IMG/VR virus record: IMGVR_UViG_3300027911_000049
Coordinates: 1 to 29,724 of that record
Origin: a virus
Direction: 5' to 3' (one strand)
DNA length: 29,724 bases
The notes beneath the pieces were generated by a model, which was given only the letters and a program-made list of their open reading frames with translations, was not told the origin of the DNA and searched no databases. Position 1 is the stretch's first letter, and the number at the start of each line of letters is the position of its first letter. This document shows positions 1,511 to 20,175 of this stretch, piece by piece. Made by a program: the position numbers and the translations under genes.

Positions 1511-2149
1511 TCAAGCCTCTTGCCGCTCGCGTCGCGGCATGTGAGGCCACTTGTACGTCGTGGTGAGGGGTTGGCCGCGCTCGTCGATCAGGACTCCCTG
1601 ACGGCCCTTCTTGGGCGCCTTCTTGGCAGCCTTCCGGTCCCGGCGCTCCCACGCGCTACCGAGTTGCGGGTAGCGCAGCTTCACGTCCGTGACCGGCATG
1701 CGGGTCGGCAGTTGCGACTCCGCCAATTCTGCCTCATGGATCGCGCGGTTGATCTGCTCGATGGGCATGTCGAAGTCGCCGTATCCTTCGCGCAACGTTT
1801 CCTGGTAGCTGACGTAGGGCACGAAGCTCCCGCTCGCGTTGTTCATCACGTAGAACATCCCGTACCGCTGCGACCCGTCGTCCTGCGTCAGCACAAAGTC
1901 CCGCTTCACGTACAGGCTCGGGTAGGACTCGAAGTGGTCCAGCGCCCGCTCGCACTTGGGCGTGATCTCCCAGAGGGCAACCCAGAGCTCGGCGCCCGTC
2001 TGCGGCACCACGTCGGCCACGCCGCGGAACATCAGCTTCCAGCCAAAGATCCGGGCGGCGCCCACGGGCACGGCGTCCGGGCAGCGGCGCTCCATCGCCC
2101 GGATGTTCGTGTTCGCTCCATACGCCGCGTACAAGGTGGTCCCGCGCAT
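1511..2149 (-). CDS. Gamma-glutamylcyclotransferase (AIG2/GGCT)-like protein, 212 aa
   Basis: The N-terminal ~115 residues match the GGCT/AIG2 fold: LYAAYGANTN (residues 6-15, the YGSN-type substrate loop), ERRCPDA (20-26), GWKLMFRGVADVVP (36-49), the ALWEI strand (58-62) and LDHFESYP (70-77). Glu74 is at the position of the family's catalytic acid. Known members remove gamma-glutamyl groups by cyclising them to 5-oxoproline. The ~80-residue C-terminal extension ends in a Lys/Arg-rich stretch (RKAAKKAPKKGRQG) and is unlike short family members. A strong GGAGGG ribosome binding site precedes ATG 2149. The gene lies two genes downstream of an amidoligase, a pairing described for phages and bacteria. 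Substrate unknown. Confidence 0.75.
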   Translation of the reverse strand: MRGTTLYAAYGANTNIRAMERRCPDAVPVGAARIFGWKLMFRGVADVVPQTGAELWVALWEITPKCERALDHFESYPSLYVKRDFVLTQDDGSQRYGMFYVMNNASGSFVPYVSYQETLREGYGDFDMPIEQINRAIHEAELAESQLPTRMPVTDVKLRYPQLGSAWERRDRKAAKKAPKKGRQGVLIDERGQPLTTTYKWPHMPRRERQEA

Positions 2150-2150
2150 C

Positions 2151-2411
2151 TCAGTTCCCTCCGCCGATGGTAATGTGGCCGGCCGTCTCGAGGTCGGCCA
2201 AGAAGTTCTCGTAGGTGTCCGTGCGGACTGTCACGTGGTCCATCCGGCGGCACCGCCTCGCGACGCCGCGCATGTAGGGGATGTTTTCCTTCTGGTGGGT
2301 CAGAAACCCGTCCTCCTTGATCCGCTCCACCACGTCCTGCGCGGTGAGTCCCGCGTATTGCCTGCCGTCCATTGTGGTAATCACAGTCGCGCCTCCGTTG
2401 ATGTTGGTCAT
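2151..2411 (-). CDS. Hypothetical early protein, 86 aa
   Basis: Small soluble protein between the amidoligase and cyclotransferase-like genes, ending 1 nt before the latter's start. I chose ATG 2411 because GGAG lies 7 nt upstream. A GTG at 2417 in the same frame, overlapping the amidoligase stop, is an alternative that adds two residues. The protein starts MTNINGGATVITTMDGRQYAGL, ends in HITIGGGN and has an RRCRRMDHV basic patch. Family not recognised. Coupled translation with both neighbours suggests it acts with them. Confidence 0.6.
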   Translation of the reverse strand: MTNINGGATVITTMDGRQYAGLTAQDVVERIKEDGFLTHQKENIPYMRGVARRCRRMDHVTVRTDTYENFLADLETAGHITIGGGN

Positions 2412-2413
2412 GT

Positions 2414-3253
2414 TCACGCTCCACCCAAGGACCGCGGCCGGCGGGCAAACCAGTCCCGGCGCGTGGTCAGAAACCTGCGGCTCGGGGCGCTCGCATGCGC
2501 CAGCGCCACGTCAAAAGTCACCGTGGAGGGCCGCACCGCCTTCCACTTCATCGAGTATTCCACGAGGCTCACGCACCAGTCGATCCACGCGGACATCTTC
2601 TCGAAGGTCACGGTCCCGCTGTGCTGGCGGAACTCCAAGGTCCCGTGGCGGTCCAGCGCCTCCATGTTCAGGCGGCGGTAGCGGCTGCCGCCGCAAAGCT
2701 CTTGCAGCGCGCGGCGCGTCTCGCAGGTGTCAATCGCCTTGAACACCGCCTTCATGCTCGTGTCCACGGCGTAGCGGTCAAAGTCCGCGGCAAACCCGGA
2801 ATCGCGGCGCGCGTTCTGCACCAAGCGCGCGCGGATGCAGTCCAGCACCGGCACGCAATAGCTGTTGTCCCGGCGGGTCGCGGGCATCACCAAATTGATC
2901 TGCTCTTCGCGCTCCACGTAGAGCTTCAGGGCGTTGCGCAGGTTCAGGACCTCCATGTCGCGGGCGTCCACGTGTACGTGCAGGCCGCAACTGCTGTTGA
3001 CCTTCGCGCCCTTGGCTGCCAGCACCGCGCAGACCTTCTGGATCTGCTCAATGCCGTCGCGCCCGGACAGCACCGGGGACACCAGTTCAAACGGGTTCCG
3101 GCCGCGCACGCTGCCGTCACCGACAATCTTCCAGCCCGTCACCGCGCCGCCTTCGTGCAGCATGCGGATCCCGGCGGCAATCAGCGCCTCGCGCAGTTCG
3201 TAGCGGGCCACGCCGTTCGCCTCAATCTCAATTCCAAACTTCCTGTCTTTCAT
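2414..3253 (-). CDS. Amidoligase-family enzyme, 279 aa
   Basis: Matches the amidoligase family (Amidoligase_2, COOH-NH2 ligases with a glutamine-synthetase-like fold). Seen in order: FGIEIEAN (6-13), the GWKIVGDGSV strand (40-49), FELVSPVLSG (55-64), CGLHVHVDARD (89-99) with its His pair, and TLEFRQHSG (205-213). These contain the Glu, His and Arg residues expected to bind ATP and metal. Family members are predicted to join a carboxylate to an amine, for example to make peptide tags or modified metabolites. It is the first gene of the middle leftward operon, with ribosome binding site GGAGG before ATG 3253 and the operator pair just upstream. The C-terminus is Arg-rich (RRFLTTRRDWFARRPR), which may contact nucleic acid. 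The substrate cannot be told from sequence. Confidence 0.82.
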   Translation of the reverse strand: MKDRKFGIEIEANGVARYELREALIAAGIRMLHEGGAVTGWKIVGDGSVRGRNPFELVSPVLSGRDGIEQIQKVCAVLAAKGAKVNSSCGLHVHVDARDMEVLNLRNALKLYVEREEQINLVMPATRRDNSYCVPVLDCIRARLVQNARRDSGFAADFDRYAVDTSMKAVFKAIDTCETRRALQELCGGSRYRRLNMEALDRHGTLEFRQHSGTVTFEKMSAWIDWCVSLVEYSMKWKAVRPSTVTFDVALAHASAPSRRFLTTRRDWFARRPRSLGGA

Positions 3254-3284: not shown

Positions 3285-3297
3285 CAAGTGCAGCTTG
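3285..3297. promoter_or_regulatory. Repressor operator, copy 3
   Basis: CAAGTGCAGCTTG, matching the CAAG-N5-CTTG pattern. It starts 33 bp (three helical turns) from copy 4 and covers the expected -10 region (CAAGCT on the minus strand) of the middle leftward promoter. Confidence 0.6.
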
Positions 3298-3314
3298 CGC
3301 CTTCAAGTGAAGTC

Positions 3315-3320
3315 TGTCAA
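3315..3320 (-). promoter_or_regulatory. -35 box of leftward promoter PL2
   Basis: Perfect TTGACA on the minus strand, about 60 nt upstream of the amidoligase start and overlapping operator copy 4. The -10 at 17-nt spacing would be CAAGCT, a poor match, so the promoter may need an activator or may start elsewhere. Confidence 0.5.
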
Positions 3321-3330
3321 GCGGCACTTG
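3318..3330. promoter_or_regulatory. Repressor operator, copy 4
   Basis: CAAGCGGCACTTG, identical to copy 1. Overlaps the TTGACA box of PL2 exactly as copy 2 overlaps that of PL1. Confidence 0.65.
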
Positions 3331-3345
3331 TGTCTGAGGCCAACG

Positions 3346-3364
3346 GACCGACGGACGGTAGGTC
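3346..3364. repeat. 19-bp control-region repeat, copy 2
   Basis: GACCGACGGACGGTAGGTC, identical to the copy at 821-839. It is separated from operator copy 4 by 15 bp, exactly 11 bp less than the 26 bp seen at the other two control regions. Confidence 0.7.
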
Positions 3365-3368
3365 GAGG

Positions 3369-4461: not shown

Positions 4462-4806
4462 TCAACGCTGGTAGCCGAAGGCGCGGAGTTCGGCGCGCTC
4501 CTGCGCCGCCCACATCTCGCGCTCGCGGGCGGCGCGGCGCAGTTCGACGAGCTCGCGGCGCTGCGCGAAACTGCACCGGGCCACGTCGGGGATCTGGACC
4601 TTGCCGTTCTGGCAGTGAGGGCAGGGGCGGTCGTACCGACCCGCCATGTAGTCCTCGCGGAAGTCCTCGTCCTGCTCGGCCCACTCGCTCGCGGTGAAGC
4701 CGCCGCCGTCGCATTCGACGTGGCGGGTGGTGGTCCCGTGACCTTGGCAGTGGTCACAGATCGACCACTGGAAGGGGATGCCCGGGGGCAGAGTGGCGCG
4801 GCTCAC
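4462..4806 (-). CDS. DnaJ-type zinc-knuckle protein, 114 aa
   Basis: Contains CDHCQGHG (17-24) followed by ECDGGG and a later CPHCQNGK, the CxxCxGxG-type repeats of the DnaJ central zinc domain, without any J domain. A C-terminal Arg/Glu-rich helix (RRELVELRRAAREREMWAAQERAELR) looks like a coiled coil. The GTG start at 4806 overlaps the preceding stop (GTGA). Small free-standing zinc-knuckle proteins of this kind are frequent in phage early regions, where their role is unknown; protein-protein or nucleic acid binding is likely. Confidence 0.65.
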   Translation of the reverse strand: MSRATLPPGIPFQWSICDHCQGHGTTTRHVECDGGGFTASEWAEQDEDFREDYMAGRYDRPCPHCQNGKVQIPDVARCSFAQRRELVELRRAAREREMWAAQERAELRAFGYQR

Positions 4807-5150
4807 GCCGTCACCTTCGCGGCGGCACGGTCAAGGCTCGGGCCGTAGACCTCGCGCAGATAGGCGGCTTTGCCGGCGGCGGTCAGCGGGTAGCCCGCTT
4901 CGCGAAGCGCCCTCCGAACGTGGGGTTGCAGGTAGCCCTTCGATTCCAGAACGGTCAGCGGCGCGCAACCCGCGGCGATGGCGGCAAGGTATTCCTCGAC
5001 CTCGAAGTGCGCGGTGAGGAATGACTGGAAGCCCCTCGCGCTCGACCGCTGGTACTTGAAGCGGGCAATGAAGGTGGGGCGGGCATCGCCGGGGACCGCG
5101 TAGTACAGGTACTCGCCGGACCTGCTGAACAGCGCCGGGTCAAATCTCAT
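4803..5150 (-). CDS. Hypothetical early protein, 115 aa
   Basis: First gene of the right-hand leftward operon. ATG 5150 has AGGAGG 7 nt upstream, which favours it over the in-frame ATG at 5210 that lies inside the control region. The sequence MRFDPALFSRSGEYLYYAVPGDARPTFIARFKYQRSSARGFQSFL suggests a compact beta-rich N-terminal domain. The C-terminal GYLQPHVRRALREAGYPLTAAGKAAYLREVYG could be a small winged-helix-like segment. Family not recognised. Confidence 0.6.
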   Translation of the reverse strand: MRFDPALFSRSGEYLYYAVPGDARPTFIARFKYQRSSARGFQSFLTAHFEVEEYLAAIAAGCAPLTVLESKGYLQPHVRRALREAGYPLTAAGKAAYLREVYGPSLDRAAAKVTA

Positions 5151-5182
5151 GTCATGCCTCCTGTGGGTGGGTTCGCAACGTA

Positions 5183-5195
5183 CAAGCGCAGCTTG
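5183..5195. promoter_or_regulatory. Repressor operator, copy 5
   Basis: CAAGCGCAGCTTG, CAAG-N5-CTTG pattern, 33 bp from copy 6, covering the expected -10 region of the right-hand leftward promoter. Confidence 0.6.
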
Positions 5196-5212
5196 GACCT
5201 TCGCGGGCACGA

Positions 5213-5218
5213 TGTCAA
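5213..5218 (-). promoter_or_regulatory. -35 box of leftward promoter PL3
   Basis: Perfect TTGACA on the minus strand, 62 nt upstream of the 115-aa gene and overlapping operator copy 6. As in PL2 the -10 at 17-nt spacing is CAAGCT, a poor match. Confidence 0.5.
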
Positions 5219-5228
5219 GCGGTACTTG
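5216..5228. promoter_or_regulatory. Repressor operator, copy 6
   Basis: CAAGCGGTACTTG, identical to copy 2, again overlapping a TTGACA box. Confidence 0.65.
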
Positions 5229-5254
5229 TATTCGAGGGCGTGCTTTTTTGCTCG

Positions 5255-5273
5255 GACCGACGGACGGCAGGTC
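5255..5273. repeat. 19-bp control-region repeat, copy 3
   Basis: GACCGACGGACGGCAGGTC, one base different from the other two copies. It is 26 bp from operator copy 6. Here the inverted ends are extended to CGGACC...GGTCCG (six pairs), so a hairpin or a dimeric protein site is possible. Confidence 0.7.
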
Positions 5274-5275
5274 CG

Positions 5276-5301
5276 AAAAAAAAGGGAGGCCGAAGCCTCC
5301 C
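5276..5301 (-). terminator. Rho-independent terminator after the repressor gene
   Basis: On the minus strand: GGGAGGC, loop TTCG, GCCTCCC, then eight T. The hairpin is perfect and ends 20 nt beyond the repressor stop codon, so it should separate repressor transcription from the leftward operon. Confidence 0.9.
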
Positions 5302-5321
5302 GTGTCAGTTTCAGGTAACGA

Positions 5322-6089
5322 TCAGTTGATCGCCGTCGCGCCCCACGAGGTCAGCACCCGCCCAAGGATGCGCGCCTCGCCGCGCTGGATCGTGGACTCG
5401 CGGAACTTCGAGTTGTCGGGGATCACGCGCAGCATCCCCGGGCCTTCGCGCTGAAGCCGGCGCACGTAAAAATCGTCGTGCAGCACGTAGCAGTAGACGG
5501 CATCCGCGCGGACATCCACCGTGCCGCGGTCCACCAACAGGATGTCGCCTTCCGCAATCGTCGGGTCCATCGCCGCGTCCTGCGCGGTGACGATGCCAAG
5601 GTTCTCGACTGCGACGTTCGGGGGAGCAATGCGTTTCAACCACGCCTGCGCGATTGCCATGCGAGCCACCGTCTCGACATGGGCCTCGAAAATCTGCGCC
5701 GTTTCCTGCGGCGCCGAAAGTTTCATTGAGGGTACGTCCACGTATTCTCCTGTTCGCGGGGTGACGGGCTCCCGGCGGCGTTCCGCTTGCATGGAAACGG
5801 TCCCGTGAGCAGGCATGCTAACACTACTTGACACCCGTGAGATTACTTCACGTTCATGTTCATTGACTCCGAACATCAAATGGGCAGGCGACGTGCCGAG
5901 AAAATCGGCCACCTTCTCCACGTGTTCCGCTCGGATCATCCCCCCGTGCATCCAAAGATTCACTGCGCTGCGCGACACGCCCACCGCTCGAGCGAGATCG
6001 AGTTGCGAGTAGTTCTTATCGGACAGCAAATCCTTGATGCGCTTCGCCCTCGCGCGGTCTGCTGCCGGCTTCGACTTGGCTTGGCCCAT
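5322..6089 (-). CDS. cI: CI/LexA-type phage repressor with apparently inactive S24 domain, 255 aa
   Basis: ATG 6089 follows GGAGGGAG. The upstream extension of the frame crosses the operator region and is rejected. Residues ~15-72 form a Cro/C1-type helix-turn-helix (YSQLDLARAVGVSRSAVNLWMHG). Residues ~160-250 are an S24/LexA-like peptidase domain (IVTAQDAAMDPTIAEGDILLVDRG, then DDFYVRRLQREG, then PDNSKF). In cleavable repressors the nucleophile is the Ser of a D-S-M-x-P motif and the base is the Lys of VKRL. Here the codons give Ala173 and Arg210. No Ala-Gly cleavage site is obvious in the linker. The protein should bind DNA and dimerise but not self-cleave. It is probably the regulator of the eight CAAG-N5-CTTG sites. 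Confidence 0.88.
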   Translation of the reverse strand: MGQAKSKPAADRARAKRIKDLLSDKNYSQLDLARAVGVSRSAVNLWMHGGMIRAEHVEKVADFLGTSPAHLMFGVNEHEREVISRVSSSVSMPAHGTVSMQAERRREPVTPRTGEYVDVPSMKLSAPQETAQIFEAHVETVARMAIAQAWLKRIAPPNVAVENLGIVTAQDAAMDPTIAEGDILLVDRGTVDVRADAVYCYVLHDDFYVRRLQREGPGMLRVIPDNSKFRESTIQRGEARILGRVLTSWGATAIN

Positions 6090-6158
6090 AACTCCCTCCG
6101 TGACAGTTCGTTGACAACCAGCCCCGTTGATCGAGACGGGATCGGCGGAGCATGGCGT

Positions 6159-6171
6159 CAAGAATAGCTTG
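6159..6171. promoter_or_regulatory. Repressor operator, copy 7
   Basis: CAAGAATAGCTTG in the cI-cro intergenic region. On the minus strand its CTTG arm continues as TTGACG, a possible -35 for repressor transcription. On the plus strand a TTGACA follows at 6175-6180, but no well-spaced -10 was found for it. Confidence 0.6.
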
Positions 6172-6228
6172 CCCTTGACATTTCGCGCAAGAGCGTATTT
6201 GCACGACCCCATTTTCCGGGAGGCGGTA

Positions 6229-6241
6229 CAAGGGACGCTTG
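6229..6241. promoter_or_regulatory. Repressor operator, copy 8
   Basis: CAAGGGACGCTTG, overlapping the -35 of the rightward early promoter in the same way as the leftward operators overlap theirs. Confidence 0.65.
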
Positions 6242-6267
6242 ACAGATTCAAGTGAGGCTGGCAAACT
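6239..6267 (+). promoter_or_regulatory. Rightward early promoter PR
   Basis: TTGACA (6239-6244), 17-nt spacer, CAAACT (6262-6267). Transcription would start near 6274, about 40 nt before the chosen start of the YdaS/Cro-like gene. The -10 is weak but the operator overlap and position support it. Confidence 0.6.
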
Positions 6268-6315
6268 GCGCCTGTGCCGGTGAAAAAGCCGGCCAACGCA
6301 GCGAGCGAGGAACAA

Positions 6316-6522
6316 GTGGAAAACCCGATGGAGAAGGCGGTCCGCATTGCGGGCGGCCAGAGCGAACTGGCCCGGATTCTGGGCGTCACCCGGGAGGCCG
6401 TTCGGCAGTGGGTCGTGTCGGGCCGCTGCTCCTACCTGCGGGTACTCGACGTGGAAAAGGCCACGAAGGTGCCCCGGCACATCCTGCGGCCTGACCTGTA
6501 TCCGAAGCCCTCGGCGCGCTGA
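6316..6522 (+). CDS. YdaS/Cro-like DNA-binding regulator, 68 aa
   Basis: GTG 6316 is chosen because AGGA lies 5 nt upstream and because the earlier GTG at 6274 would coincide with the expected transcript start. The protein reads MENPMEKAVRIAGGQSELARILGVTREAVRQWVVSG...VEKATKVPRHILRPDLYP. This is the YdaS antitoxin/Cro-type helix-turn-helix pattern, including the characteristic ending RHxLRPDxYP. Such proteins act as Cro analogues that shut down the repressor promoter during lytic growth. It is divergently oriented to cI, as expected, and begins the rightward early operon. Confidence 0.82.
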   Translation: MENPMEKAVRIAGGQSELARILGVTREAVRQWVVSGRCSYLRVLDVEKATKVPRHILRPDLYPKPSAR

Positions 6523-6526
6523 GGCC

Positions 6527-6871
6527 ATGGCCTCATTCCCGAAGCCGCACACCTTCCGGTGCGCCCGGCTTCGAGAACTCATCAACACGCTCGGCGCCCG
6601 CCGGGAACTCGCCTGCATGGACTGCGGGGCGAACGACGGCACCGTCGTCGCCGCGCACTCGAACTACGGCAAGGGCGGCGCCATCAAGGCGAGCGATTCG
6701 TCGCTGTGCGCCCTGTGCTTCACCTGCCACTCCCGACTGGACCAGCCCGGGCTCGACGCCCGGCCCAAGGCGGAGCGGCGTGAATACGAGGCGCGAATGA
6801 ATCTCGCCACGCTCCGGCACCTACTCGAGCGCGGGTTCCTGATTGTCACGTTCAAACCCACGGAGGCATGA
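6527..6871 (+). CDS. YbcO-like HNH-fold nuclease (DUF1364), 114 aa
   Basis: The core CMDCGANDGTVVAAHSNYGKGGAIKASDSSLCALCFTCHSRLD carries the paired cysteines, the AHxN motif, the KxSD motif and the CxxCH of the YbcO/DUF1364 family. That family comprises phage HNH-like nucleases found in the nin-type region of lambdoid phages and thought to act on single-stranded or branched DNA in recombination. ATG 6527 is used. The start lies 4 nt after the stop of the Cro-like gene and the end overlaps the next gene (ATGA at 6868), showing tight operon coupling. Confidence 0.75.
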   Translation: MASFPKPHTFRCARLRELINTLGARRELACMDCGANDGTVVAAHSNYGKGGAIKASDSSLCALCFTCHSRLDQPGLDARPKAERREYEARMNLATLRHLLERGFLIVTFKPTEA

Positions 6872-7038
6872 CCATGCAGACCGCACGATCCAAGTCCAGC
6901 CGGTTCAGCGCCGGCAGCACGAACGCCGTCCAGCGGTACGAGCAGGAGAAGGGCCTGTGGGACGCCGCCCATCCCGAAGCCAAGGCCAGCGAGCGCGACT
7001 GCGCGCTTGCCGGGCTGGCCCGCCGCCTCGGACTGTAG
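6868..7038 (+). CDS. Small hypothetical protein, 56 aa
   Basis: Short ORF with ATG 6868 overlapping the stop of the YbcO-like gene and GGAGG just upstream. It encodes MTMQTARSKSSRFSAGSTNAV..., ending in a helical ERDCALAGLARRLGL segment. It fills the gap exactly: it begins at the preceding stop and ends 3 nt before the next start, which is why I accept it. Family not recognised. Confidence 0.6.
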   Translation: MTMQTARSKSSRFSAGSTNAVQRYEQEKGLWDAAHPEAKASERDCALAGLARRLGL

Positions 7039-7041
7039 GCC

Positions 7042-7923
7042 GTGCGCCCCACCTTGCAACTGGCCCATTCCGCCCCGCTCCCCGATCCTCCCTACCCGGA
7101 GGGCACGAAGGCGGCCGGCTGGCGTTTCCAGTTCGATCATGAGCGGTGCGAGGGCTCCGACACGTGGGCGCTCGCGCCAGCCGAGATCAAGCCTTGGCTC
7201 CTGATGATGTGGTATCGGGCATGGACGGCCACGCCCTGCGGCACCTTCTCGAACGATGACGCCATCATCGCGGCGCGCATCGGCATGCCGTTGACGCTGT
7301 TCCAGATGAACCGGGATGTCCTGCTGCGCGGCTGGACTCTTCACTCCGACGGGCGCCTTTACCACCACGTCCTGACGCAGCGCGTAACCGAACTGCTCGA
7401 GTTCCGCGGCAAGCAGAAGGCTCGGATCGATAAGCGTTGGGAGCGTGTGCGCGCAACCGCAGGGGCCACCCCGCAGGATACCGGCGGTATACCGCGGTAT
7501 TCCACCGTAGTTCCGCTGGATACCATACCAATACCAATACCTATAGAAAAACAAACCCATACGTCCCCGGCCGACCTCACGCTGGCGCCTGCGCCGGCTG
7601 TCGCCGGCCCTGCGGTGGCGGGGTGCCCGCATGACGCCATCGTGGCGCTCTATCACGAGATCCTGCCCGGCAACCCCCGCGTCATGGTCTGGAACGCGCA
7701 GCGCCAATCCATGCTCCGCCAGCGGTGGCGGGAAGAGCCGAAGCGCCAGAGCCTCGACTGGTGGCGCGGGTACTTCGAGTTCTGCACGAAATCCCCGTTC
7801 CTCATCGGCAAGGCGCCGCCGAGCCCCGGCCGGCCTCCCTTCGTGGCCGACCTTGAATGGCTGATCGGCGCGCAGCACTTGCCGCACGTGATCGAGGGTC
7901 GCTACCACCGGGGGAACACATGA
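7042..7923 (+). CDS. Replication initiator-like protein (phage O / DUF1376-like), 293 aa
   Basis: GTG start at 7042. The N-terminal ~125 residues (GSDTWALAPAEIKPWLLMMWYRAWTATPCGTFSNDDAIIAARIGM...) resemble the winged-helix domain of phage replication proteins of the O/DUF1376 type. A low-complexity linker (IPIPIPIEKQTHTSPADLTLAPAPA) follows. The C-terminal domain (YHEILPGNPRVMVWNAQRQSMLRQRWRE...WWRGYFEFCTKSPFLIGK) is the module common to such proteins, probably helicase loading. It lies immediately upstream of dnaB with a 4-nt overlap. The linker-coding DNA contains an origin-like repeat block. Confidence 0.75.
   Translation: MRPTLQLAHSAPLPDPPYPEGTKAAGWRFQFDHERCEGSDTWALAPAEIKPWLLMMWYRAWTATPCGTFSNDDAIIAARIGMPLTLFQMNRDVLLRGWTLHSDGRLYHHVLTQRVTELLEFRGKQKARIDKRWERVRATAGATPQDTGGIPRYSTVVPLDTIPIPIPIEKQTHTSPADLTLAPAPAVAGPAVAGCPHDAIVALYHEILPGNPRVMVWNAQRQSMLRQRWREEPKRQSLDWWRGYFEFCTKSPFLIGKAPPSPGRPPFVADLEWLIGAQHLPHVIEGRYHRGNT
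7478..7562. other. Candidate replication origin inside the initiator gene
   Basis: Six ATACC repeats (starting at 7478, 7489, 7520, 7525, 7531 and 7537), a 12-bp palindrome GCGGTATACCGC (7484-7495) and a following AT-rich stretch (about 7542-7562) stand out from a very GC-rich background. Phage lambda keeps its iterons and AT-rich unwinding element inside the O gene in the same way. Function is inferred from position and composition only. Confidence 0.55.
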
Positions 7924-9290
7924 GCCTGAACGAACTGACGCCGAAGTCCCTGATCGCGGAGCGTTCCCTGCTCGGCGCCGTGCTGCTGGATGGGAAGTGT
8001 TTCGAGTCCGTGTCGGACATGCTGGTGCCCGAGGACTTCGGGCTGCCGGAACACCGCACGATCTTCGCCGTCATGGCCTCGATCTTCGACCGCGGCCAGC
8101 CGATTGACCCGATCACCGTCTGGAACGGTGCGGGAAGCCCGCGCGGCGGGGGCGACGAGTCGGCCGCGACGCTGCCCTACCTGAACGCGATGGCGCAGAA
8201 CACGCCGGGCTCCACCAACGTTCGGCGCTACGCGGAACTCGTGCGCCGGTACGGCCTGCTCCGCCGTATCTGGGAGATCAGCAATTCGGCGGCGGTGAGC
8301 GCCGGCGCGCCGAACACTGAGCCCCACGAGCTCGCGGAGAAAACTGAGGCGGACCTGATCCGGGCGATGGACCGGAGCGAGGGCGACCCGGTGCCGCTCG
8401 CGGAGGCCGTCAACGAGGCGATCACCTACGCCAACGAGCGCACGGAGTCCGGGCAGTCCATGTCCGGCGTGTCCTGCGGGCTGGACGGGCTGGACCGCTT
8501 CACCAACGGGCTCGAGCCGGGACAGCTTGTCGTGGTGGCCGCGCGCCCGAGCATCGGCAAGACGGCGCTCGCCTGCTGCATCACGAGCGCGATGTCCGCG
8601 GCCGGGCGAAAGGGCCTGTTCTTCACGCTCGAGATGAGCCGCCGGGAGATCGGCCAGCGCATCCTCGCGCTGCGCTCCGGGGTGTCCACCCACGCGATGC
8701 GCAGCGGGACGAAGGAGGACCGGCACTGGCTCCGCATGGTGGACGCGCAGGAGCGCATCCAGCCCGAGCAGGTCTTTATCGACGACACGCCGGCCGTGAC
8801 CGTGGGCTACATCCGCGCGAAGGCCCGGCGCCTCGCCCGCCGCATCGGCCTCGACTTCGTGATCGTGGACTACATCGGCCTCATGCGCGGGCATGGCGAG
8901 AACCGGACGCAGGAGATCGGGAGCATCAGCCGCGGCCTGAAGGCGCTCGCCAAGGAACTCGCGGTGCCCGTCATCGCGCTGGCGCAGTTGAACCGGGACG
9001 TGGAGCGCCGTGGTGACGCGCGCCCGCTGCTCTCCGACCTGCGGGACTCCGGCGAGATCGAGCAGGACGCGGACATCGTCGTGATGCTCCACCGCCAGTC
9101 CAAGCACGGCGGCGGGCCGGAGTGGGACGGGCTCGCTGAACTGCTCGTGCGGAAGAACCGCAATGGCCCCACCGGGGACGCGCTGCTCTTCTTCAACGAC
9201 GAGATCGGGTCGTTCGGTGACACCGACCGCCAAAACCCGCGCGGCCTGAGCCAGCCTCCGGTCAACCGCGCGATCACCTACGACCGCTGA
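7920..9290 (+). CDS. dnaB: Replicative DNA helicase DnaB, 456 aa
   Basis: ATG 7920 overlaps the preceding stop (ATGA). Residues ~9-110 are the DnaB N-terminal helical domain (AERSLLGAVLLDGKCF...). Residues ~180-450 are the RecA-like motor: CGLDGLDRFTNGLEPGQLVVV (187-206), Walker A ARPSIGKTA (208-216), Walker B FVIVDYIGLM (313-322), AQLNRDVERR (355-364), LLSDLRDSGEIEQDADIVVMLHR (370-392). All catalytic elements are intact and the length is normal. It should form the hexameric helicase at the phage replication fork, loaded by the initiator encoded just upstream. Confidence 0.97.
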   Translation: MSLNELTPKSLIAERSLLGAVLLDGKCFESVSDMLVPEDFGLPEHRTIFAVMASIFDRGQPIDPITVWNGAGSPRGGGDESAATLPYLNAMAQNTPGSTNVRRYAELVRRYGLLRRIWEISNSAAVSAGAPNTEPHELAEKTEADLIRAMDRSEGDPVPLAEAVNEAITYANERTESGQSMSGVSCGLDGLDRFTNGLEPGQLVVVAARPSIGKTALACCITSAMSAAGRKGLFFTLEMSRREIGQRILALRSGVSTHAMRSGTKEDRHWLRMVDAQERIQPEQVFIDDTPAVTVGYIRAKARRLARRIGLDFVIVDYIGLMRGHGENRTQEIGSISRGLKALAKELAVPVIALAQLNRDVERRGDARPLLSDLRDSGEIEQDADIVVMLHRQSKHGGGPEWDGLAELLVRKNRNGPTGDALLFFNDEIGSFGDTDRQNPRGLSQPPVNRAITYDR

Positions 9291-9300
9291 AAGGATCGAC

Positions 9301-9927
9301 ATGCACACGCACTTGGCTTTGATCGTGGACCGCTCCGGCTCGATGGGCGGCAAGGTGAATGACGTGGTCGGCGGAGTCAACCAGTTCATCAAGGAGAACT
9401 GCGAGGCACCGGGCACTGCGGCGCTCACGATCATGCAGTTCGACGACCAGTTCGAGATCAAGCACCACGACGATGTCCGCTACGTCATCCCGTGGGGTCC
9501 CGAGCACTACAAGCCGCGCGGAAGCACGGCGCTGCTCGACGCCATCGGCCGGACGATTCAGGAAGTCGGCCGCGCGCTCCAAGCCGCGCCCGCGGAAAAG
9601 GTGATCGTCACGGTCATCACGGACGGGCAGGAGAACGCCAGCCGGGAATACACCAGCGAGCGGATCAAGGAAATGATGGCCCACGCCGAGAAGCACGGCT
9701 GGACCTTCCTCTTTATCGGCGCCGACAAGCAGGCCGTGGTCGCCGCGCAGGGCATGGGGTTCAACTCCATGCATACCTCGAGCTACGCAAATGACTCCAT
9801 CGGCACGACCTCCGCGTACTCCGCCTCCGCCGGCGCGACGGTGATGATGCGGTCCGTCCCGGACGCCCACGTGAACATGGGCGTGCTGGTCGCGGACCAA
9901 GACGCCAAGCTGCGGGGCGCGAAGTGA
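9301..9927 (+). CDS. VWA (von Willebrand factor A) domain protein, 208 aa
   Basis: A single VWA domain covers nearly the whole protein. The metal-ion-dependent adhesion site is complete: DRSGSM (Asp10, Ser12, Ser14), Thr76 in GSTALLDAIG, and Asp108 in VITDGQEN. These bind Mg or Mn and a partner's acidic residue. There is no signal peptide, so it acts in the cytoplasm, probably as a scaffold or chaperone for a phage or host protein. It starts 10 nt after dnaB and overlaps the next gene by 4 nt, so a link to replication or nucleotide metabolism is possible. Such proteins recur in phages but their role is not established. Confidence 0.87.
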   Translation: MHTHLALIVDRSGSMGGKVNDVVGGVNQFIKENCEAPGTAALTIMQFDDQFEIKHHDDVRYVIPWGPEHYKPRGSTALLDAIGRTIQEVGRALQAAPAEKVIVTVITDGQENASREYTSERIKEMMAHAEKHGWTFLFIGADKQAVVAAQGMGFNSMHTSSYANDSIGTTSAYSASAGATVMMRSVPDAHVNMGVLVADQDAKLRGAK

Positions 9928-15315: not shown

Positions 15316-15930
15316 ATGAAACACGCCGATTTCCAGCCGCAGATCGAGCAGGTCGCGCTCGAGAAGCTGTTGCCGTATGCGCGCAACTCGCGCACGCACA
15401 GCGACGAGCAGGTCGCGCAGATCGCCGCGAGCATCCGGGAGTTCGGGTTCGTCAACCCGGTCCTCATTGACGCCCGGGGCACGATCATCGCCGGCCACGG
15501 CCGCGTGCTGGCCGCCCGCAAGCTCGGGATGGACGAGGTCCCGGCGATCCAGTTGACGCACCTGAGCGATGCGCAGCAGCGCGCGCTCGTGATCGCGGAC
15601 AACAAGCTGGCCCTGAACGCGGGGTGGGACTACGACAAGCTGGCGGTCGAGATCGACGCGCTCAAGGACGACAATTTCGACGTGAACCTGCTTGGGTTCA
15701 CGGGCAAGGAACTCGCGGAACTCGTTGGCACGCCGAACACCGGCCCCGACGAGGGCAACGACGGGCAGCAGGGCTTCGGCGTCAGCTACACCATCGTGTT
15801 CGACGATCAGGAGCAGCAGGACAAGTGGTTCGCGTTCTGCAAGGGCCTGAAGACGCGCTACCCGCTGCACGAAACGCTCGGTGCGCGCATCACCGCCTAC
15901 ATCGAGGAAATCGGCCTCGCCAATGGCTAA
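15316..15930 (+). CDS. ParB/Spo0J N-terminal domain protein, 204 aa
   Basis: Residues ~10-120 are a ParB N-terminal domain: LLPYARNSRTHSDEQVAQIAASIREFGFVNPVLID (18-52), TIIAGHGRVLAARKLG (56-71, the GHxR nucleotide-binding motif) and VIADNKLALNAGWD. This subtype is usually fused to a DNA methylase in phages. Here the methylase part is absent and replaced by an ~80-residue C-terminal domain (GVSYTIVFDDQEQQDKWFAFCKGLKTRY...). ParB domains bind CTP or ATP. The stop overlaps the start of the PAPS-reductase-like gene by 8 nt, which places it in a four-gene module. Confidence 0.82.
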   Translation: MKHADFQPQIEQVALEKLLPYARNSRTHSDEQVAQIAASIREFGFVNPVLIDARGTIIAGHGRVLAARKLGMDEVPAIQLTHLSDAQQRALVIADNKLALNAGWDYDKLAVEIDALKDDNFDVNLLGFTGKELAELVGTPNTGPDEGNDGQQGFGVSYTIVFDDQEQQDKWFAFCKGLKTRYPLHETLGARITAYIEEIGLANG

Positions 15931-16984
15931 GGCGAAGCGGTACATCGAGGCGACTGTACTCGATGAGGCGAAGAAGCGCATCCACCACATCTTCGACATC
16001 TTCGATACAGTGGTCGTGATGTTCAGCGGCGGCAAGGACAGCCTTGCCACGCTGCACCTGACGCGCGAAGTCATGCTCGAGCGAGGCATCACCAAGCCCC
16101 TCGACGTGGTGTTCCGCGACGAAGAACTGATCCCCGATGAGGTCATCGACTTCGTGGACGGCTACCGGAAGCTGGACTGGATCAACATGATCTGGTTCAC
16201 CGTCCCGCTCAAGTCCACGAAGTACGTCCTCGGCGTCTGCCACAATTACGTCCAGTGGGACCCGAACCGCCCGTGGGTGCGCGAGAAGCCGGCGTGGGGC
16301 ACGAACCTCGCCCCGGGCGACGAGCGCGTGTTTGACCAGTACACCATGGACGCCTACACCGCCCAGAACTACCGCGGCAAGATCGCGTTCCTCACCGGCA
16401 TCCGCGCCAGCGAATCCATCATGCGATTCCGGGCCTGCGTGAACAAGCTGAACGAGAACTACATCAACGCCGTCAGTGACCCGTCCTGCAAGCACGTGTC
16501 GCTCTGCAAGCCCCTCTTCGATTGGGAAGAGAACGACATCTTCCGGTACTTCTACGACCGCAACATCGCGTATTGCTCGCTCTACGACATGCAGATGTGG
16601 GCCGGCAACGGCCTGCGCGTCTCGACGCCTCTGCACGCGGAGAGCGCCAAGCGGTTCGACAAGATCCGCAGCACCACCCCGGGCTTCTACGAGCGCGTCA
16701 TCGCCGTGTTCCCCGAGATGCTGGCCCACGAGCGGTACTACCGCGAACTGGACAGCGAGGCGATCCACCGTCGGTACGGCCAGTCCTACGAGGGCGTCCG
16801 GGCGTGGATCGAGGAACACATCACGGAGGAATCGCAGTACGACCTCGCCGTGGATCGGTTCGAGTCCGTCATGTCGCGCGCGCGCAAGACGCCTGACAGC
16901 TACCCCCCGCGCCACCTGCTCAACGCCTTCATGGGCGGCGGGTTCAAGCGCGAGATCCTTCCGCTCGGAAAGGGCGCGCAATGA
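15923..16984 (+). CDS. PAPS-reductase-like PP-loop ATPase (IbrA-type), 353 aa
   Basis: ATG 15923 inside the end of the ParB gene. The adenine-nucleotide PP-loop is seen at VVVMFSGGKDSLAT (30-43), and FLTGIRASES (156-165) is the second conserved motif of the phosphoadenosine phosphosulfate reductase family. The C-terminal half (CKPLFDWEENDIFRYFYDRNIAYCSLYDMQMWAGNGLRVS...) matches the larger IbrA-type proteins rather than CysH, which needs a C-terminal ECGLH cysteine. Enzymes of this fold activate a substrate with ATP and often transfer sulfur (DndC, thiouridine enzymes). IbrA with IbrB is known genetically as a prophage gene activator pair in E. coli. The next gene is IbrB-like, overlapping by 4 nt. 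Confidence 0.85.
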   Translation: MAKAKRYIEATVLDEAKKRIHHIFDIFDTVVVMFSGGKDSLATLHLTREVMLERGITKPLDVVFRDEELIPDEVIDFVDGYRKLDWINMIWFTVPLKSTKYVLGVCHNYVQWDPNRPWVREKPAWGTNLAPGDERVFDQYTMDAYTAQNYRGKIAFLTGIRASESIMRFRACVNKLNENYINAVSDPSCKHVSLCKPLFDWEENDIFRYFYDRNIAYCSLYDMQMWAGNGLRVSTPLHAESAKRFDKIRSTTPGFYERVIAVFPEMLAHERYYRELDSEAIHRRYGQSYEGVRAWIEEHITEESQYDLAVDRFESVMSRARKTPDSYPPRHLLNAFMGGGFKREILPLGKGAQ

Positions 16985-17496
16985 AGTTCGACGACCCGAT
17001 CACGAAGATTGAATGGCGCGACGCCTCGACGCTGGAAGCGAACGGGTGGAACCCGAACGTCGTCTTCGGCCCCGAACTGAAGCTGCTCGAGCGGTCCATC
17101 CTGACCTGCGGCTGGATCCAGCCCATCATCGTGAACCCGGAGGGCATCGTCATCGACGGCTTCCACCGCTGGAAGCTCTCGTCGGACTCGCCGGCGCTGC
17201 GCAAGCGGTACGGCGGCAAGGTGCCGTGCGTCGTGATGAACCTCGACCGCCCGGCCGCCATGATGCTCACCATCCGCATCAACCGCGCCAAGGGCACGCA
17301 CGTCGCCGTCCAGATGGGCGTCATCGTCCGCGAGCTCATCGACAAGCACGGCATCGACCCTCAGCAGATCATGGCCGAGATCGGCGCCACGAAGGACGAA
17401 GTGGACCTGCTGTATCAGGACGGCGTGTTCAAGATGAAGAACATCAAGGACTACGCCTACTCGAAGGCGTGGTATCCCTATGAGAAGCGGGCGTGA
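16981..17496 (+). CDS. ParB-fold partner protein (IbrB-type), 171 aa
   Basis: Short ParB/sulfiredoxin-fold protein: EWRDASTLEANGWNPNVV (11-28), LERSILTCGWIQPIIVNPEGIVIDGFHRWKL (36-66) with the IDGxHR nucleotide-binding motif, then RINRAKGTHVAVQMGVIV (99-116). The first half resembles IbrB, which always pairs with IbrA. It lacks the ParB helix-turn-helix and dimer domains, so it is not a classical segregation protein. The ATGA overlap with the IbrA-like gene and GTGA overlap with the methyltransferase-like gene indicate a single functional unit. Confidence 0.82.
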   Translation: MKFDDPITKIEWRDASTLEANGWNPNVVFGPELKLLERSILTCGWIQPIIVNPEGIVIDGFHRWKLSSDSPALRKRYGGKVPCVVMNLDRPAAMMLTIRINRAKGTHVAVQMGVIVRELIDKHGIDPQQIMAEIGATKDEVDLLYQDGVFKMKNIKDYAYSKAWYPYEKRA

Positions 17497-18050
17497 GGTA
17501 CGACGCGACGGAGTATCTGGAAGCGTGGCAGGAGACGGGCAAGTTCCCGCGCATCCACGATGCCATGGCGAGCGCCTTCGCGGCCTTCGCAACGCGAGAT
17601 CGCCTGCTGGACCTGTGCTGCTGCCATGGCCTGCTCGGCGCGCGCCTGAGCGTGCAGCCGCCCGGCCTCGAGTGCGTCGTTGGCGTGGATGCAGACCTCG
17701 CAGCGATTGAGCGCGGGCGCGCCGCCGGCGTCCCCATCGAGCTTCACCACATGCGGATCACGCTCGAAACTCTGAAAGACCTTGCGTCCCTCATTGACGC
17801 GCGTAAAATTGACGTGTTGGTGGCACGCCGCGCGATGCCTGAGCTTTGGGGTCAGGACACGCACGAAGGCATTGAGTTCTCCCGAACCATGGCCGCCGCC
17901 GGCATCCGCGAAATCTTCTTGGAGGGCCGAGTGAAGTCCGCGCGCGCCACGAACGCCCTTGCCAGCATCGACGACGAGATCGGCCTGTTCGCCCACGAGT
18001 ACGCGGTCGCAAAGCGCCACGGCGCCGTCGCGTACCTGCGGCGCCGCTGA
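17493..18050 (+). CDS. SAM-dependent methyltransferase-like protein, 185 aa
   Basis: GTG start overlapping the previous stop. Residues 37-48 (RLLDLCCCHGLL) look like the glycine-rich SAM-binding loop of class I methyltransferases, with Cys replacing the usual Gly-Cys-Gly spacing. CVVGVDADLAAIERG (61-75) is the following strand with the ribose-binding acid. KIDVLVARRAMPELWG would be strand 4. No NPPY/DPPY motif is present, so an amino-methylating DNA enzyme is not supported. It could modify a nucleotide, RNA or protein, or be a non-catalytic relative. It closes the ParB/IbrA/IbrB-like module and overlaps the next gene (TGATG). Confidence 0.6.
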   Translation: MRYDATEYLEAWQETGKFPRIHDAMASAFAAFATRDRLLDLCCCHGLLGARLSVQPPGLECVVGVDADLAAIERGRAAGVPIELHHMRITLETLKDLASLIDARKIDVLVARRAMPELWGQDTHEGIEFSRTMAAAGIREIFLEGRVKSARATNALASIDDEIGLFAHEYAVAKRHGAVAYLRRR

Positions 18051-18482: not shown

Positions 18483-18896
18483 ATGCCCGCAGGCCGTCCC
18501 GCGTTCGAGCCGAACGAGAAGCAGCGCACCGCAGTAAGCATCCTCGCCGCGTGCGGGACCGCTCACGAAGTCATCTGCACCCAGATCGTCAATCCCCAGA
18601 CCGGGAAGCCGATTGACGACAAGACCTTGCGCAAGGTGTTCCGCCGTGAACTGAAGGACGGCAAGGAGCGCGCGAACGCGATGGTCAAGAAGTCCCTGTT
18701 CATGAAGGCCACGGGGAACGGCAACGGCGCGACCGCGGCTGCGATCTTCTGGCTCAAGACGCAGTGCGGCTGGAAGGAGCCTGCGCAGGGCCACGAACTC
18801 ACCGGCAAGGATGGCGCGCCGCTCGCGCCCCCGAGCGTCGAAGTCATCTTCAGCGCCGCCGCCGGACCGGACGATGAGCCCGAAGCTCCGGGTTGA
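18483..18896 (+). CDS. terS: Terminase small subunit, 137 aa
   Basis: The N-terminus MPAGRPAFEPNEKQRTAVSILAACGTAHEVICTQIVNPQTGKPIDDKTLRKVFRRELKDG is a helix-turn-helix-like DNA-recognition segment typical of small terminases, followed by helical oligomerisation sequence and an acidic tail (PDDEPEAPG). It should recognise the packaging site on phage DNA and hand it to the large subunit. Ribosome binding site AAGGAG; the 3' end overlaps the large subunit start by 23 nt. Confidence 0.82.
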   Translation: MPAGRPAFEPNEKQRTAVSILAACGTAHEVICTQIVNPQTGKPIDDKTLRKVFRRELKDGKERANAMVKKSLFMKATGNGNGATAAAIFWLKTQCGWKEPAQGHELTGKDGAPLAPPSVEVIFSAAAGPDDEPEAPG

Positions 18897-20175
18897 CATC
18901 CCGAGCGCCTTCGAGGAACTGTTTCGGGCACACCGATACCACGTTTACTACGGAGGGCGCGGGTCAGCGAAGTCGTGGTCCGTTGCGCGCGCGCTGGTCC
19001 TGAAGGCATACCGATCCCCGCGGCGCATTCTCTGCACGCGCGAGATCCAAGGCTCCATCGCGGAATCCGTGCATCACCTGCTCGAAGAGCAGATCAACGA
19101 GATGGGACTGGCGCCGTGGTTTGACGTGCGCGAGCGGTACATCGCCTGCCGCCTCAACGGCTCCAACTTCCTGTTCAAAGGGCTGCGCCACAACGTCACC
19201 GAGATCAAGTCCACGGAAGGCGTGACGGACTGTTGGGTCGAGGAAGCGGAGAAGGTGAGCTCGAGGTCGTGGTCGGTCCTGATCCCCACGATCCGCATGC
19301 CCGGCTCCGAGATCATCGTCACCTTCAACCCGGCCGACGAGAAGGACCCGACCTACCAGCGGTTCGTCGTGAGCCCGCCGCCGGACGCCTTCGTGAAGAA
19401 GGTGTCGTGGCGGGACAATCCGCACTTCGGCAAAACGACGCTGCCGGCGGAGATGGAGTACCTGCGCCGCGTGGACATGGACGCCTACCTGCACGTCTGG
19501 GAGGGCGAGTGCCGCGTGGCGAGCGCCGCGCAAGTGCTGAACGGCAAGTGGACCATCGACACCTTCGAGCCGGTGACGCGCTCGGATGATCGGTCGCAGG
19601 TCTGGGACGGCCCGTACTACGGCGTGGACTTCGGCTTCGCGGAAGACCCGTCCACGATGCTCCGCGTCTGGGTTCACAACCGCAAGCTCTACGTCGAGCA
19701 TGAAGCCTACGGTCTGAAGGTCGAGAGCGATGACCTGCCGAGGCTGTTCGACAAGGTGCCCGGCGGCAAGGACTACGTGTCGCGCGGCGACTGCGCGCGC
19801 CCGGAAACGATCAGCTACCTCCGCCGCAACGGCTATCCGCGGATGGTTTCCGTGGACAAGTGGCCCGGCAGCGTGGAAGATGGCATCGCGCACCTGCGGC
19901 AGTACGAGCAGATCGTGATTCACCCGCGCTGCCCGCGCACCGCTGAAGAGGCGCGGCTTTGGAGCTACAAGCAGGACCGCCTGACGGGCGACGTGATGCC
20001 GGATCTGGTGGACGCGAACAACCACTGTTGGGACGCCATCCGGTACGCGCTGGCGCCGCTGGTGAAGCGCAGCACGCCGGGCGAGGGCTTCTTGGCCTAC
20101 GCCGCTGATGCGCTCGCGCGCAAGCGCGCGGAAGACGAATCACGTTCACGCGATCCGAAGCACGTGAAGGCATGA
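18874..20175 (+). CDS. terL: Terminase large subunit (PBSX/Terminase_3 type), 433 aa
   Basis: ATG 18874 is chosen inside the end of terS; the longer frame upstream would repeat terS DNA in another frame. ATPase: Walker A GGRGSAKS (27-34), ILCTREIQGSIAESV (52-66), CWVEEAEKVS (120-129, the acidic Walker B region), VTFNPADEKDP (149-159). Nuclease (RNase H-like): YYGVDFGFAEDPS (248-260) with Asp252, and Asp387 in HCWDAIRYAL. All motor and nuclease motifs are intact and the length is normal for the family. It drives DNA into the prohead and cuts it. Confidence 0.95.
   Translation: MSPKLRVDIPSAFEELFRAHRYHVYYGGRGSAKSWSVARALVLKAYRSPRRILCTREIQGSIAESVHHLLEEQINEMGLAPWFDVRERYIACRLNGSNFLFKGLRHNVTEIKSTEGVTDCWVEEAEKVSSRSWSVLIPTIRMPGSEIIVTFNPADEKDPTYQRFVVSPPPDAFVKKVSWRDNPHFGKTTLPAEMEYLRRVDMDAYLHVWEGECRVASAAQVLNGKWTIDTFEPVTRSDDRSQVWDGPYYGVDFGFAEDPSTMLRVWVHNRKLYVEHEAYGLKVESDDLPRLFDKVPGGKDYVSRGDCARPETISYLRRNGYPRMVSVDKWPGSVEDGIAHLRQYEQIVIHPRCPRTAEEARLWSYKQDRLTGDVMPDLVDANNHCWDAIRYALAPLVKRSTPGEGFLAYAADALARKRAEDESRSRDPKHVKA

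Follow-up and report, generated by a model that had tools for sequence, protein, structure and literature searches.

Can a phage repressor that keeps a complete S24 domain have lost the ability to cut itself, and what would then release its prophage? The question is raised by a gene in the viral record IMGVR_UViG_3300027911_000049, whose positions 1 to 29,724 we analyzed as a single 29,724-nucleotide stretch (hereafter the window). The gene occupies 5322–6089 on the minus strand, from an ATG start at 6089 to a stop codon at 5322–5324, and encodes a CI-type immunity repressor of 255 amino acids. Its open reading frame (ORF), coordinates and strand are those of the original prediction, which had been made from the letters of the sequence without database searches. 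We find that the repressor is very probably incapable of self-cleavage. It clearly exemplifies a design already established for phage 186 and does not represent a new one. Two features are particular to it: a complete nucleophile loop altered by point substitution and a set of putative operators at four promoters.

Catalytic residues and cleavage site

The repressor consists of a helix-turn-helix (HTH) domain (residues ~16–71), a linker (~80–115) and an S24/LexA-like C-terminal domain (~116–250). Both domains score above their Pfam cut-offs (HTH_3, 36.4 bits against 23; Peptidase_S24, 51 bits against 23.3), and the whole protein matches the PHROGs family phrog_4, transcriptional repressor, at 8.6e-31. 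An AlphaFold2 model built with 73 relatives has a mean predicted local distance difference test score (pLDDT) of 86.2 and a predicted template modeling score of 0.58. Both domains are modeled confidently and the linker is not; pLDDT falls below 50 at residues 97–104 and 132–134. When the model was compared with the PDB using Foldseek, the best matches were a lambda-186 hybrid repressor, LexA and lambda CI. CI of phage 186 was also found (E 1.1e-7), and its C-terminal domain gave the highest template modeling score on the target, 0.79, among the 50 matches listed. Structure matches in a viral library were for the most part CI repressors. The CI/LexA-like C-terminal fold that had been proposed from sequence is thus borne out by profile, model and structure matches.

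Within this fold, the residues required for autoproteolysis are replaced. Codon 173 (5571–5573, minus strand) is GCG and places Ala where the S24 repressors D3 cI, HK639 CI, F10, JD024, JBD24, vB_PaeP-D14S and others have the catalytic Ser of the GDSM motif. Codon 210 (5460–5462, minus strand) is CGC and places Arg where the same set, including D3 cI, HK639 CI and JD024, has the catalytic Lys of the KR motif. An alignment with LexA agrees with both assignments. The loop around Ala173 is whole (QDAAMDPTIAEGD) and altered by point substitution. The cleavage site is changed as well: most relatives have A-G or C-G at the scissile position, compared to LSA-P in the window repressor (Ala126-Pro127, codons at 5709–5714, minus strand). 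Both substitutions had been predicted, together with the lack of an obvious Ala-Gly site. The latter observation can now be strengthened, since no AG or CG dipeptide occurs anywhere in the 255 residues.

These replacements leave little room for proteolysis by another route. The original prediction had named a Ser and a Lys brought to the active site from elsewhere in the chain as the observation that would overturn it. Beyond residue 110, the repressor has Ser only at 121, 125, 227, 232 and 248 and Lys only at 123, 152 and 228, and none of them aligns with the active site, judged by sequence position only. It is very improbable that the repressor still cleaves itself through an alternative Ser/Lys pair or with Arg210 as the base. 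Ser227 and Lys228 are neighbors, and Ser121, Lys123 and Ser125 lie beside the former cleavage site, which could suggest such a pair. However, none of these residues falls on the nucleophile or base column, Ala occupies the nucleophile position, Ala-Pro stands in place of the scissile bond in the alignment, and the missing AG and CG dipeptides also argue against surviving self-cleavage. Arginine, moreover, is a very poor general base.

We give almost no weight to the explanation that the substitutions arose as errors of sequencing, assembly or alignment. The viral contig is of unknown coverage, and we found no near-identical second copy of the repressor against which to compare it. Nevertheless, two distant codons and the cleavage site are all altered in an intact reading frame, and alignments and profile searches are concordant. 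Because the CGC codon of Arg210 is at least two substitutions away from any Lys codon, a single sequencing error cannot account for the pattern.

The repressor has the HTH and the S24/LexA fold of the autocleaving S24 proteins typified by lambda CI. Since the Ser, the Lys and the scissile Ala-Gly or Cys-Gly that define that class are all absent, it falls outside it. The predicted loss of RecA-stimulated self-cleavage is well supported by the replacement of nucleophile, base and scissile bond in an otherwise intact fold, and we infer that RecA-triggered cleavage of this repressor is missing. Its C-terminal domain would have kept the LexA/CI fold while losing self-proteolysis, and was probably retained as a module for dimerization and cooperativity.

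Known counterparts and the history of the lost dyad

A LexA-fold C-terminal domain with no Ser-Lys dyad and with Arg at the base position, as found here, is what distinguishes the 186 CI type. In 186 CI the nucleophile segment is missing and Arg152 stands at the catalytic-base position (PMC12984324). Like the window repressor, 186 CI (PDB 2FJR, 2FKD) joins an HTH to a LexA-fold C-terminal domain that has no catalytic Ser; unlike it, 186 CI has no nucleophile segment, whereas the window repressor has the entire loop. With lambda CI, P22 C2, D3 cI and LexA, the window repressor shares domain order and Pfam families, and it differs from the lambda-type repressors in that Ser, Lys and Ala-Gly are all replaced.

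Non-cleavable CI proteins are an accepted class, as the repressors of 186, the Gifsy phages and the linear plasmid-like phages precede this one. The Salmonella Gifsy-1, Gifsy-2 and Gifsy-3 repressors GfoR, GtgR and GfhR are non-cleavable and are released by antirepressors, which in the phage's own circuit are LexA-controlled (PMC3121763). They are ~136–150 amino acids long and have no C-terminal S24 domain, in contrast to the window repressor, in which the domain is present and catalytically dead. Among 271 repressors of linear plasmid-like phages, a 2023 study judged 210 to be putatively non-autoproteolytic because catalytic features were missing (PMC10432266).

To place the substitutions among related proteins, we compiled 161 distinct S24 domains; their sources were phage records together with viral and genome contigs retrieved using related proteins. 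Most (145) have the Ser/Lys dyad, six have Ser/Arg, one has Ser/Ser and two have Ser with the Lys column missing. One further entry is a false match (Met/Ala), and the remaining six have no Ser. Because the fetch patterns for many of these domains admitted only Ser, Ala or Val at the Ser column, the percentages are not population frequencies. All six Ser-less domains have also lost the Lys (Ala/Arg twice, Asp/Arg, Val/Arg, Gly/Gln and Gly/Asn), a joint loss with a Fisher p of ~9e-8 computed over tips that are not independent. Such joint loss is expected if proteolysis is no longer under selection. Since Ser/Arg forms exist and Ser-less forms with Lys were not seen in the census, the sequences suggest that loss of the base may precede loss of the Ser.

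A tree of 117 domains, built with the dyad columns excluded and unresolved at many forks, requires at least 13 changes of dyad state when every departure from Ser/Lys is counted, cut-off and false rows included. The window repressor sits among Ser/Lys repressors with weak support, on an end branch of 1.22 compared to a median of 0.42. Two Burkholderia phages of the Peduoviridae offer a partial parallel. The FLC10 repressor also has both residues replaced, Ser by Val and Lys by Arg, and the KS14 repressor keeps Ser and has Arg at the Lys position, a decay in the same direction. However, both share less than 30% identity with the window repressor and form a sister pair elsewhere in the tree. Given its Ser/Lys neighbors in this weakly resolved tree, the most fitting interpretation is that the window repressor lost its dyad secondarily, in an event separate from that in the FLC10/KS14 pair. 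The same grouping makes convergent loss more likely than common descent with 186 CI, which is itself not among the tips.

The Ser-to-Ala change appears to be rare in its exact context. A codon scan of viral contigs for GD-Ala-M-x-P-x4-GD returned 30 loci, none of which encoded an S24 domain whose Ser position is Ala. Dead dyads were also seen in other settings. A regulator of Candidatus Azophilus (L330:2494–3408) carries the identical Ala/Arg replacement (GDAMEP, VVRRL); the ORFs around it resemble genes of host metabolism, and we noticed none of phage type. Two S24 domains in which no HTH was recognised (L072:2597–3361 and L077:2470–2979, minus strand) have dead dyads (Gly/Asn and Gly/Gln, respectively), keep an Arg-Ala-Gly site and lie directly 3' of an intact CI-like S24 repressor gene. 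These proteins could be decoys or dominant-negative partners.

Putative operators at four promoters

A 13-mer, CAAG-N5-CTTG, occurs in eight exact copies in the window (0.27 expected; none of 100 shuffles reached eight). All eight copies lie in intergenic DNA, which makes up ~4% of the window under the gene set used, and they form four pairs (762/782, 3285/3318, 5183/5216 and 6159/6229). The last pair separates the repressor from a divergent Cro-like regulator (6328–6522, plus strand; the ORF is listed from a GTG at 6274). This protein matches the Pfam family YdaS at 57.6 bits (cut-off 30) and P22_Cro at 28.9 bits, just under the cut-off of 30.2.

The pairs coincide with candidate promoters. 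At pR, the operator candidate CAAGGGACGCTTG (6229–6241, plus strand) runs into a -35 hexamer TTGACA (6239–6244), followed by the -10 hexamer CAAACT (6262–6267). Its partner CAAGAATAGCTTG (6159–6171, minus strand) runs into TTGACG on the repressor side, a candidate repressor promoter with a weak -10. The other three pairs mark leftward promoters on the minus strand. At pL1 (5183–5228), the -35 TTGACA lies in the first operator (5216–5228) and the -10 position in the second (5183–5195). The pL2 pair (3285–3330; operators 3318–3330 and 3285–3297) has a 33-bp layout like that of pL1, and pL3 (762–794; operators 782–794 and 762–774) reads TTGACA-17 bp-TATTGT.

Aligned by strand, one copy of each leftward pair and the copy at 6229 read CAAG-N3-CGCTTGACA or nearly so. 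These operators run into the -35 TTGACA, with -10 positions 17 bp on, and the layouts align at all four promoters. The -10 hexamers are TATTGT at pL3, CAAGCT at the start of the second operator at pL1 and pL2, and CAAACT at pR. A generic promoter scan of 4700–7100 listed none of these operator-bearing promoters, because the -10 hexamers there are weak.

The locus therefore has the arrangement of a lambdoid immunity region: a repressor gene divergent from a Cro-like gene, with shared putative operators at pR and pL. Whereas three leftward promoters carry putative operators here, lambda-type phages have one. A repressor in working order, paired with a divergent Cro-like protein, would be expected to use such an arrangement, and the repressor gene looks functional. 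We propose that the repressor itself binds the CAAG-N5-CTTG sites, with dimers occupying the paired operators at pR and the three leftward promoters. Bound repressor would cover the -35 hexamer and block RNA polymerase.

Several other features accompany these sites. A scan of viral contigs with the operator/-35 sequence gave 27 loci, a number near the estimated chance level, none with a repressor homolog. In one DnaB-encoding phage contig (L103), four CAAG-N5-CTTG sites at 2351, 2369, 3400 and 3439 lie near a 118-amino acid HTH-only repressor, so the half-site may serve unrelated repressors. Just upstream of each leftward operator promoter stands a 20-bp repeat, GACCGACGGACGG(T/C)AGGTC(G/C), at 821–840, 3346–3365 and 5255–5274; the stretch with the 5255 copy folds strongly, whereas those with the other two do not. 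A terminator-like hairpin with a T tract (5284–5301, minus strand) lies 3' of the repressor gene, between it and pL1. A 61-nt segment spanning it has a folding z of -4.15, and the count of terminator-like hairpins is not above that in shuffles.

Release from repression

If self-cleavage is lost, what frees the prophage? The original prediction held that induction would need another route, which presupposes an inducible prophage, and it offered early proteins or the VWA protein as triggers. These candidates find no support. The rightward run behind pR includes a replication initiator (7042–7923, plus strand) and a DnaB-like helicase (7857–9290, plus strand), both identified by PHROG matches, and the VWA gene (9301–9927; PF00092, 24.3 bits, cut-off 23.8). 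As each of the visible early units, three leftward and one rightward, starts at an operator-bearing promoter, they appear to be under immunity control. A trigger gene cannot depend on a promoter that the repressor blocks, which makes the visible early genes poor candidates. The VWA protein in particular belongs to an operon that starts at pR and should be silent in a lysogen.

We favor a protein antirepressor as the release route. In phage 186, CI is inactivated by the antirepressor Tum, which is produced from a LexA-controlled promoter (PMC7708051). By analogy with 186 and the Gifsy phages, an antirepressor encoded elsewhere would sequester the window repressor where induction occurs. Our preferred account as a whole, in which a CI-type repressor with the LexA/CI fold has lost self-proteolysis, acts at paired operators at four promoters and is released by an antirepressor, is somewhat more probable than its negation. 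A less probable variant is that the dead CI, with its whole S24 core, holds at least four early promoters and is released independently of SOS, either through an antirepressor not yet described or through a signal that the former peptidase domain detects directly.

Some points weigh against the account we prefer. No LexA box was found in the window among the E. coli, alphaproteobacterial and GAAC-N4-GTTC types sought, where the host motif may differ. PHROG and Pfam searches revealed no antirepressor, and nothing like the Tum gene of 186, in the 29.7 kb of this incomplete contig. Single-protein scans of viral and genome contigs found no close ortholog of the repressor. Finally, operator binding is deduced from position only, and the sites could also be used by the Cro-like protein. 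With regard to the antirepressor, PHROG and Pfam identified no genes for tail, lysis or integrase in this incomplete contig, so that an antirepressor gene elsewhere is quite possible. Such a gene must then be carried by the unseen part of the genome, by the host or by a co-resident element.

A different explanation is that the protein is a natural non-inducible (Ind-minus) repressor. Its prophage would be deaf to signals and would leave lysogeny only by rare stochastic loss of repression, or would be on its way to becoming defective. We consider this unlikely, despite the loss of three parts of the switch, the lack of a visible inducer gene and a long end branch consistent with relaxed constraint. 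The 186 relative P2 has no SOS-inducible phenotype (PMC7708051), and the degenerate FLC10 and KS14 repressors belong, as do P2 and 186, to the Peduoviridae. Against these points, the replication, terminase and portal genes look intact, operators are retained at four promoters, and an invisible inducer means little in an incomplete contig.

Slightly less likely still is removal of the repressor by a host ATP-dependent protease, or sensing of a small molecule or stress through the C-terminal domain or the long linker. ClpX is reported to be required for inactivation of a staphylococcal CI (PMC10584840), and IrvR, a LexA-like protein of Streptococcus mutans, is reported to depart from the RecA rule (PMC7101444). 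The low-confidence linker in our model could be accessible. However, we identified no degron, ligand pocket or sensor domain in the repressor.

The remainder of the window places the repressor among genes for immunity, replication, modification, terminase and portal. An amidoligase and a gamma-glutamyl cyclotransferase are encoded together (1511–3253, minus strand) in a leftward unit behind an operator-bearing promoter, and would accordingly be expected to stay off during lysogeny and to come on early in the lytic cycle. At 15316–17496, two ParB-like proteins (15316–15930 and 16981–17496) flank a PAPS-reductase-like protein, with a methyltransferase adjoining at 17493–18050. We considered the ParB-like proteins as partition proteins; their position around the PAPS-reductase-like gene is more like a nuclease or modification module. 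Many viral contigs encode relatives of the PAPS-reductase-like protein, with identities of up to 77%. The terminase large subunit (18811–20175) has its nearest relatives in Nitratiruptor and Bdellovibrio phages, at ~50–52% identity, and the window has no DNA-level similarity to any phage record.

S24 repressors are usually annotated as RecA-responsive and their prophages as SOS-inducible. The repressor described here illustrates that annotation from the domain only can err, and that the dyad must be read before an S24 repressor is called self-cleaving. Its putative operator set makes the regulon of this phage directly testable.
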